A stretch of 64,000 bases of DNA, taken from Nitrososphaerota archaeon (GTDB lineage Archaea; Thermoproteota; Nitrososphaeria; Nitrososphaerales; Nitrosopumilaceae). Of the stretch, positions 13,539 to 54,674 are shown piece after piece (position 1 is the stretch's first letter; every line of letters starts with the position of its first letter). Under the pieces are notes generated by a model that ran no database searches, had not been told where the DNA came from, and saw only the letters and a list, made by a program, of their open reading frames with translations. A program made the translations under genes and the position numbers. The stretch spans positions 137,630 through 201,629 of the forward strand of contig JAGWGB010000001.1 of assembly GCA_028867595.1 (NCBI GenBank), in the 5' to 3' direction.

Positions 13539-13855
13539 AATCACCCTATCAAATCAAGTGCGTGCCAGCAGTAACCCTCCTTCTGTTTTACGAGATTTCG
13601 CTATGCGGCCTACCTAAACAAAGTGCAGCGCTTACAGTTTGATTTGGCCTTTCTCCAAGTGGTGCAGACTTTTCATTCCTTGCTGGAAACCTCAGGCATA
13701 ACCATCACAGTACATTCCAGATCAGATAGTTTCTGTTCTGCTGCCAATCATCTCTGACTATCCGTCGCCGGATCACTTGCTGCATGGAGGGAGGAGTTTC
13801 CTCTGCCGTAGCAGCGCCTCATTCACTGGCTCGCACCTTTCAAAGTAGGGTGATT
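13539..13855 (-). ncRNA. rnpB: RNase P RNA
   Basis: This protein-free stretch carries an archaeal RNase P RNA on the minus strand. The ends pair as helix P1: AATCACCCTA at the 5' end (complement of 13846-13855) with TAGGGTGATT at the 3' end (complement of 13539-13548), a perfect 10-bp match. Conserved-region I appears as GAGGAAACTCC, the central region as AGAACAGAAAC, and the 3' conserved region as AAACAGAAGGAGGGTTACTG. The length, about 317 nt, suits archaeal type A RNAs. It processes the 5' ends of tRNAs together with Pop5, Rpp30 and partners. Assigned from motifs and P1 pairing; the internal helices were not folded by program. Confidence 0.87.
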
Positions 13856-53171: not shown

Positions 53172-53375
53172 GTTATTCCCTCACATAATTTTGCGGTTCT
53201 AATAATATCATCTTATCAGCTTATGACATTATAACTCAGCTAATATGTAGAATTAATGATCGTTTTCAAGCAATCAATTGCAATCAAACCATGGTAAAAT
53301 TTCAGATTCAAATCCATCTGGAAAGCAATTTAGACAAATTTTTGCGTGATTTTCTAAACTATACCAACCGAAAAC

Positions 53376-53391
53376 ATTGTTCATGAACAAT
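53376..53391. promoter_or_regulatory. 16-bp perfect palindrome
   Basis: ATTGTTCATGAACAAT is perfectly symmetric and lies about 11 bp upstream of the TATA-like box of the stem element. It looks like a dimeric regulator site. RHH proteins bind such palindromes, and two RHH genes are next to it. Confidence 0.5.
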
Positions 53392-53401
53392 AGTACGCAA
53401 G

Positions 53402-53409
53402 TATTATTT
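53402..53409 (+). promoter_or_regulatory. TATA-like box of the ncRNA candidate
   Basis: tattattt is centred about 25 nt before the first base of the 74-nt stem element at 53431, the normal archaeal TATA-to-start distance. Confidence 0.4.
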
Positions 53410-53430
53410 GGTTTAGAACTTACTTTTGCG

Positions 53431-53504
53431 ATGGAAACTGTAGGTGCCATGGCACCTTAGGGAAATGTGCCCTTCCCAGACTCTCCTTGCCCTACAGTTT
53501 CCAT
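53431..53504 (+). ncRNA. candidate structured small RNA (inverted-repeat element)
   Basis: ATGGAAACTGTAGG (53431-53444) pairs perfectly over 14 bp with CCTACAGTTTCCAT (53491-53504). Inside lie a palindrome AGGTGCCATGGCACCT (53442-53457, which competes with the inner three pairs of the stem) and a second small hairpin GGGAA/TTCCC (53460-53476). The plus strand has a TATA-like box about 25 nt upstream and a T-rich tail (tttgttggttttggcttt) after the stem, so I assign the plus strand. It matches no RNA family I know. Alternatives are a 9-codon leaderless mini-ORF (MET VGA MAP), a MITE-like element or a two-way terminator. Confidence 0.5.
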
Positions 53505-53575
53505 TTTGTTGGTTTTGGCTTTAATTAGCACTGGAACATATTGTATGCGTGACACAATGCGAAAAACTTTTTGTT

Positions 53576-54151
53576 TTACTTGGAGAGATATCTCTTCGGG
53601 ATTTTAATTACTAGCGTGTTTTCCGAAATCTGAAATGTTGCATCACATCCAAGATCCTTGAATGCCTGTTCATAAAACAACTTGGAATGTAACGAATATT
53701 TTTCTCCCATATCATGACGCATAACAAATACAGATTCATTTTCATCATGTATGGCAGTAAGATCAAAACCTGCTACAAATGATTTTATTTTCATCATATC
53801 AATCCATTCGCTTATTCCATAGTTTCCTCGCATTGAGAGGCACAGATCTCGTGGCAATGTCTTGCCTTCCTTCTGAGCTACCTGTACAATTTCCTTGTCA
53901 TCCAATTTTTCCAAAATTAATTTTATGACCTTGTCTTCTATAGGAACCCAGCTTGATTTTGCTGCAACTACATCCCATTCGATTGCCTGCAAAAGCAACT
54001 TATTTACAAGTGCATTTACTGTTGATTTTTCATACTGTGCATGAGTTTTTAACTTTGCAAGTACTTTTGAGTCCAGCCTAAAGGTTACAGTTCCAGTGGA
54101 CTCTTTGTATTTTTGAGAATCAGTTTGCGTTTTCATCATCTGCAAATGCAA
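53576..54151 (-). CDS. RHH-domain DNA-binding protein (tandem copy 2)
   Basis: A 191-residue protein. The N-terminal ribbon-helix-helix (GTVTFRLDSKVLAKLKTHAQ, then STVNALVNKLLLQAIEWD) is followed by a C-terminal alpha/beta domain of about 130 residues (MRHDMGEKYSLHSKLFYEQAF). It is a paralogue of the gene at 54120-54674 over its whole length. Its start overlaps that gene's end by 32 nt (ATGs at 54139 and 54136 are alternatives). Likely a regulator whose large C-terminal domain senses a signal; ligand unknown. Confidence 0.8.
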   Translation of the reverse strand: MHLQMMKTQTDSQKYKESTGTVTFRLDSKVLAKLKTHAQYEKSTVNALVNKLLLQAIEWDVVAAKSSWVPIEDKVIKLILEKLDDKEIVQVAQKEGKTLPRDLCLSMRGNYGISEWIDMMKIKSFVAGFDLTAIHDENESVFVMRHDMGEKYSLHSKLFYEQAFKDLGCDATFQISENTLVIKIPKRYLSK

Positions 54152-54674
54152 TCCTTATTGTGTTATTATCATACTCTAACTCTATGCTCTTGTGCAATAC
54201 TTCTTTGAATACAAGCTCAAGTATTGTCTTTTGGTAGAGGGCCCATTTCTTTCCAAGATCATGCTTTAGGACTATACTATGAACTCCATCATCGATGAGA
54301 TGGCTTGTTTGCACCGAAGAATTCAGCATCATAGTTTCATACCATGAAAGAAATGATCTGAGGTCTACCTTTCCGCGCATAAATAACACAATGTCTTCGA
54401 TCTCTTCCTTTCCCATCGTCGATGCTAGCTCGACTATGAATTTCTCGTCTAGCCCGTCAAGTATTTTTTTCAATACTGGTCTTGTCAGGATAACGAATCC
54501 TGACCTTGGGAGATAAACATCCCAATCGATGAATCTACGCAACGCTTGATTCACAAGTGTATTTGTGCTGACTTCTTGTACGCGTGACAAGTTGCGTAGT
54601 TTGTTTATGGTGCTGTCATCGAGTCGAAACGTTATGGTAGACGTCTTTTTAGACCCTGAGACCATGTTCATCAT
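54120..54674 (-). CDS. RHH-domain DNA-binding protein (tandem copy 1)
   Basis: A 184-residue protein with the same layout: RHH at about 12-55 (STITFRLDDSTINKLRNLSR, then NTLVNQALRRFIDWD), then DIVLFMRGKVDLRSFLSWYE and VLKHDLGKKWALYQKTILE, matching MRGNYGISEWIDMM and VMRHDMGEKYSLHSKLF of copy 2. The pair arose by tandem duplication and they may form a heterodimer. Start at 54674, with a second ATG next to it. Confidence 0.8.
   Translation of the reverse strand: MMNMVSGSKKTSTITFRLDDSTINKLRNLSRVQEVSTNTLVNQALRRFIDWDVYLPRSGFVILTRPVLKKILDGLDEKFIVELASTMGKEEIEDIVLFMRGKVDLRSFLSWYETMMLNSSVQTSHLIDDGVHSIVLKHDLGKKWALYQKTILELVFKEVLHKSIELEYDNNTIRIAFADDENAN

Follow-up and report, generated by a model that had tools for sequence, protein, structure and literature searches.

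A previously unlisted family of putative small-RNA genes with a constant stem and C-rich loops in acid-soil ammonia-oxidizing archaea

The window analyzed here (a stretch of archaeal DNA of 64,000 nt) contains an inverted repeat at positions 53431-53504, and the question raised by this locus is whether the repeat delimits a gene for a small RNA, as an earlier note made from the sequence alone had proposed, or whether a terminator, a mobile element or a short reading frame would explain it. From the comparisons described below we conclude that a genuine small-RNA gene, its transcription being inferred, is almost certainly present here, and that the element is one of a family not listed before, whose members occur in ammonia-oxidizing archaea of acid soils (Nitrosotalea and a sister genus). 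The repeat is perfect over 14 bp (arms 53431-53444 and 53491-53504; 46 nt spacer), exactly as first described, and is the only perfect inverted repeat of at least 14 bp with a spacer of at most 80 nt in the window; sequences simulated from it with a first-order Markov model have 0.03 on average. The minimum free energy (MFE) of 53431-53504 is -31.4 kcal/mol, compared with -17.4 ± 3.1 for shuffled sequences (z = -4.6; 0 of 200 as good). The surrounding gap of 404 nt (53172-53575) is indeed the longest stretch of the window without an ORF of at least 60 aa. Elsewhere in the window an archaeal RNase P was located (13560-13834). The element itself, for which the earlier note could name no RNA family, found no Rfam match at the gathering or a permissive threshold (best score 12.3 bits vs. 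a threshold of 55).

Within the structured body of the putative RNA (53431-53504, plus strand), which is supported by the repeat, the fold, orthologues, covariation and model matches, the following parts were distinguished, all on the plus strand: (i) the 5' arm of a constant stem (53431-53444, with the core GAAACTGTAGG at 53434-53444), showing A to G changes that keep G-U pairs and, in diverged members of the family, compensatory changes; (ii) an apical hairpin GGGAA-AUGUGCCC-UUCCC (53460-53477; 53460-53464 paired with 53473-53477), which displays a C-rich loop and is predicted in 7/7 orthologues; (iii) a segment AGACUCUCCUUG (53478-53489), predicted to be single-stranded and mostly kept among orthologues; and (iv) the 3' arm of the constant stem (CCTACAGTTTCCAT; 53491-53504), whose core is identical in all members of the window element's group (group A) and in the first 27 members of the family. 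Two smaller hairpins had been seen inside the repeat at the outset; the GGGAA/UUCCC hairpin is one of them, while the other, a GGTGCC-AT-GGCACC palindrome, would pair at the expense of the long stem and is not kept in the orthologues.

When the 37 genomes of the genus were searched at the nucleotide level, orthologues were identified in six Nitrosotalea genomes besides that of the window, in a similar genomic setting; one of these orthologues (L069) is from 'Ca. Nitrosotalea sp. TS'. The palindromic arms led BLAST to report the wrong strand for four of these matches, which were turned before alignment. An upstream block, GAAAACATTGTTCAYGAACAAWAGTACRCAAGTATTATTT, is conserved across all seven aligned orthologues, and pairwise identity within group A is 93% in the operator and promoter, 89% in the 5' arm, 72% in the loop and 100% in the 3' arm, with 37-40% in the flanks. 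The locus usually adjoins, in convergent orientation, the same pair of ribbon-helix-helix (RHH)-like genes, which in the window lie on the minus strand (53576-54151 and 54120-54674) and which adjoin the small RNA in most group A relatives. The products of both genes are related to each other, have N-termini that look ribbon-helix-helix and lack a Pfam match. The alignment also bears on a leaderless short ORF of 9 codons (METVGAMAP), which had been put forward as a leader-peptide alternative, and on the related reading of a cis leader of a downstream gene. The frame is present in the window, but its start codon is missing or the frame is broken in the orthologues, and the adjacent downstream gene lies on the opposite strand, so that such a reading is barely credible.

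Signals for transcription were found at fixed distances from the stem. The TATA box TATTATTT (53402-53409, plus strand) has its centre about 25 nt before 53431, as already noticed, and the transcription start is predicted, without transcript data, at about 53428-53431. When 47 elements of the family are anchored on the GAAAC arm, a TATA box appears at -29 to -24 and an AACAATT-like motif near -47 to -42; neither is seen at equal distances downstream. This promoter motif was already apparent in the set retrieved by pattern only, before the promoter entered any model. Further upstream lies a palindrome, ATTGTTCATGAACAAT (53376-53391, not assigned to a strand), marked out by its conservation and its recurrence in the genus, whose right half, AACAAT (53386-53391), is the -47 motif common to the paralogous small-RNA loci. 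The sequence TTGTTCAYGAACAA is invariant in 7/7 orthologues, and in 1.2 Mb of the relative G031 it was found only at the small RNA, as were the palindrome and the complete promoter motif. In congeners (L028, L031, L032, L037 and L040) the palindrome ACATTGTTCATGAACAATGT, or one very like it, is also found ahead of secreted-protein-like genes, and it is therefore inferred to be probably an operator of an unidentified thaumarchaeal transcription factor. On the other side of the element, the T-rich run reported past the last arm is present (53504-53507, plus strand) and is a probable termination signal, in line with a T-rich downstream bias in the family: the 12 nt past the 3' arm are T-rich in 29/47 elements, those on the other side in 7/47. 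The inferred transcript probably ends near 53510.

What the earlier note had overlooked is that the element is a member of a multi-locus family. Searches with a covariance model (R1) and then with an arms-only pattern revealed the same arms at other loci with wholly different loops, and two further models built on the stem and promoter (R2 and R3) extended the family to about 65 loci in 26 genomes, comprising 23 of the 37 Nitrosotalea genomes and 3 of the 5 genomes of the sister genus; the other 14 of the 37 congeners gave no match. No match was obtained in other genomes of the archaeal family, nor elsewhere in a 400-genome sample of the class, in which only 2 of 82 genera contain members. The genomes searched were mostly metagenome-assembled (MAGs). 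In one genome (G012) five members were retrieved by the pattern and seven by the model, and the closed genome G002 has a diverged member at C1:1441452-1441566. The window's own genome has two members, and a BLAST-like search found no second copy by sequence, near-identical or otherwise; the second member (L129; G000:C115:45150-45265) was detected only by the stem-and-promoter model. L129 has the loop CAACCCCAUCC and is flanked by one gene on its own strand and one convergent gene. The aligned elements were sorted by eye according to locus and loop, which gave about 16 groups, and the gene neighborhood is mostly kept across species within a group and different between groups. The first 27 members came from the arm pattern and the later ones from models trained on them, and the conservation of arms and promoter is thus partly ascertained by the search design; this bias weighs less on the covariation, the excess of G-U over A-C cells, the lack of members in other genera and the statistics of the loops. 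The covariance models were calibrated only briefly, which leaves their E-values rough, and two of the weakest matches (L185 and L186), whose stems pair poorly, may be chance matches.

The strongest evidence for an RNA comes from the stem common to the family (11-14 bp; GAAACUGUAGG/CCUACAGUUUC). In the first 27 elements, retrieved with a strand-symmetric pattern, all changes in the core arms are A to G on the 5' arm with the G-U pair kept, except at one end pair. Across 46 elements 98.8% of the stem cells are paired (34-51% in slid controls), and the compensatory changes for which relatives were to be searched were found: both sides have changed at 5/11 pairs, in 15 cells compared with 2.5 in shuffles, and only 0-1 of 500 shuffles attain the observed measures. 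Compensated stems are exemplified by L133 and L143 (GAAACCGUGGGG/CCCCACGGUUUC) and by L144 (CUGUGGUC/GACCACAG). Three later members included in no model (L183, L189 and L190) again have compensated stems, with the caveat that a covariance model favors paired matches. G-U cells number 40 across the stem and A-C cells 2; since these 40 cells would be mismatches on the opposite strand, the RNA strand is the plus strand, which agrees with the side of the TATA box. We therefore hold with high confidence that 53431-53504 is a selected, structured RNA gene; the compensatory changes and the shared promoter thus support the original proposal of a small RNA, although transcription remains inferred in the absence of transcript data. 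As judged from sequence comparison, it would be a stand-alone plus-strand gene of a family confined, among the genomes searched, to Nitrosotalea and its sister genus.

The same observations weigh on two other explanations of the repeat. The element lies just downstream of the stop codon of the leftward RHH-like gene (53576-54151, minus strand), about 70 nt away, and several paralogues are likewise near a convergent gene end, as would be expected of an intrinsic terminator or a bidirectional 3' hairpin of that gene. A terminator, however, would account neither for a conserved TATA box and -47 motif at a fixed distance on the opposite side, nor for a G-U bias that fixes the RNA as the plus strand, nor for loops conserved among orthologues, and many loci of the family are away from convergent gene ends; we consider it highly improbable. 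Multi-copy terminal inverted repeats with a variable interior would also suit a non-autonomous mobile element (MITE) or an inverted-repeat site acting at the DNA level. The copies at other loci are, however, not near-identical, the parts they share being only the arms and the promoter at its fixed distance; their loops differ, synteny is mostly kept within groups (target-site duplications were outside the base-level comparison), and the prevalence of G-U over A-C changes points to selection on RNA pairing. The near-identical copies that would have spoken for a MITE and against an RNA gene were thus not encountered, and very little room is left for this reading. A viral origin was also considered; a pattern scan of viral contigs gave a single match, without a thaumarchaeal promoter, and provided no evidence for it.

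In the loops, read on the RNA strand, C is more frequent than G (29% vs. 15%), ACCCC occurs in 42% of 16 groups compared with 7.6% in shuffles, and CCCC in 60% compared with 18%. The loops vary between loci and are conserved among orthologues; unpaired CCC is absent from 3 of the 16 loop groups (I, K and L). The C-rich segment is exposed by different means: in group B a second stem puts CAACCCCAUCC in the apical loop, and in group A the GGGAA-AUGUGCCC-UUCCC hairpin does so. Comparison of the loci thus shows putative RNA genes that form a family: their stem is constant, they have a promoter of their own, and their C-rich loops are specific to the locus.

Taken together with the inferred promoter, this architecture suggests how such an RNA might work. 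Transcription would begin at the base of the stem, with expression presumably set by a transcription factor on the palindromic site; the constant stem may protect the RNA and/or serve as a handle for a dedicated RNA-binding protein, and the exposed C-rich loop would be the acting part; it would work in trans and most likely base-pair with G-rich segments of mRNAs, the address differing from locus to locus. We favor, with some reservation, the interpretation of the family as multi-locus, trans-acting small RNAs with a stem handle and a C-rich loop that are mainly base-pairing regulators, both transcription and action in trans being inferred. Base-pairing targets were sought and not found, so pairing is the weakest mechanistic link of this interpretation and protein titration its main rival. 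In 1.2 Mb of one relative, with heuristic gene starts, complements of the loop motif near gene starts were not enriched beyond the start-codon ATG, and the neighboring genes showed no complementarity beyond overlaps, the top scores being trivial overlaps. Pairing in trans to start regions is consequently unproven and may be wrong.

The rival reading is of a protein-binding RNA with a constant handle, which titrates or docks a single protein through its stem or its C-rich loop and does not pair with mRNAs. Such an RNA could be a decoy of the CsrB or 6S type, or else a ligand of a ribosomal protein that looks like a portion of 5S rRNA. The stem is near-invariant at unrelated loci beyond what pairing needs, which argues for a sequence-specific partner that would read it, as protein recognition predicts, and the loops have a short motif that recurs, not one specific to a target. 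The loops of group C (CCCCAUCCGAAC and CCCCAUCCGAACUC; L050, L056, L058, L130 and L136) moreover resemble loop C/helix III of 5S rRNA, the loop C counterpart in the same organisms being CCCAUUCCGAAC, and it is possible that the group C RNAs are ligands of a ribosomal protein. The window element nevertheless lacks this likeness, which no group but C shows, and each locus retains its own loop among orthologues (in group A 72% identity, flanks 37-40%), which exceeds the need of a generic decoy. Protein binding alone thus remains a possible but doubtful substitute for the preferred base-pairing regulators. More speculative still is a programmable system, in which a dedicated Nitrosotalea protein would read the constant stem and interchangeable loops would be RNA or DNA target addresses renewed by duplication and loop replacement.

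Among known systems, the LhrC RNAs are a precedent for multicopy, co-regulated small RNAs with C-rich loops (PMC4132741). LhrC/Rli22 of Listeria and the UCCC-motif small RNAs of Firmicutes (RsaE, SprD and FsrA) share with the present family several loci, a common regulator, small structured RNAs and a C-rich loop motif (PMC4132741), and the present family, like LhrC, has multiple loci that share a promoter element and expose a C-rich loop. The LhrC copies are nearly identical, whereas the Nitrosotalea family is archaeal and has differing loops on a constant stem; no sequence relation was seen, and pairing to ribosome-binding sites, a criterion for the LhrC-like class, is not supported by the 1.2 Mb of one genome with heuristic gene starts. 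By analogy only, the LhrC family would be the closest functional precedent. In archaea, sRNA162 of Methanosarcina mazei pairs with mRNAs (PMC3510493) and, as an intergenic trans-acting small RNA, is likewise a stand-alone archaeal RNA gene (PMC3510493; reviewed in PMC5867862); those sources describe no multi-locus family with a constant stem for RNAs of this type. The 2018 review of archaeal small RNAs leaves the Thaumarchaeota unmentioned (PMC5867862). Searches of the open-access literature, preprints excluded, found no description of a small-RNA family from Nitrosotalea or from any other ammonia oxidizer among the archaea.

In archaeal C/D and H/ACA guide RNAs, as in the present family, an invariant scaffold is combined with parts that vary, there the guides. 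The elements of the present family lack the C (RUGAUGA) and D (CUGA) boxes (0/47), however, and an ANA box within 3 nt of the stem, the only H/ACA criterion applied, is present in just 3/47; both identities were rejected. Mimicry of 5S rRNA has a known form, the 5S-mimic element P5SM of plants. The group C loops carry a CCCAUNCCGAAC-like sequence, the likeness to loop C/helix III is partial and the window loop does not match, and the family was not identified as a 5S rRNA mimic.

Ammonia-oxidizing archaea perform much of soil and ocean nitrification, and a multi-locus, co-varying family with its own promoter and operator, apparently limited to an acid-soil lineage, suggests a lineage-specific system of RNA regulation. 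Its approximately 65 genes provide a concrete set for studying RNA regulation in these archaea, binders of the stem and the recognition of C-rich loops.

A genome-wide pattern scan also returned palindromes in Desulfamplus, Oscillospiraceae, Opitutia, Pelagicoccus and Lacunisphaera, which are GC-rich and promoterless and were judged unrelated. The Desulfamplus MAG contains several palindromic repeats (L043, L044, L052, L053 and L062) with the same arm sequence, GC-rich interiors and no TATA promoter, judged to be an unrelated repeat family. Within the family, the diverged subfamilies L133, L143, L141, L144, L147, L146, L183, L189 and L190 have interiors that are larger, less C-rich or differently structured (e.g., CUGUCAAGCCAGACCAU), and these subfamilies may have a different function.
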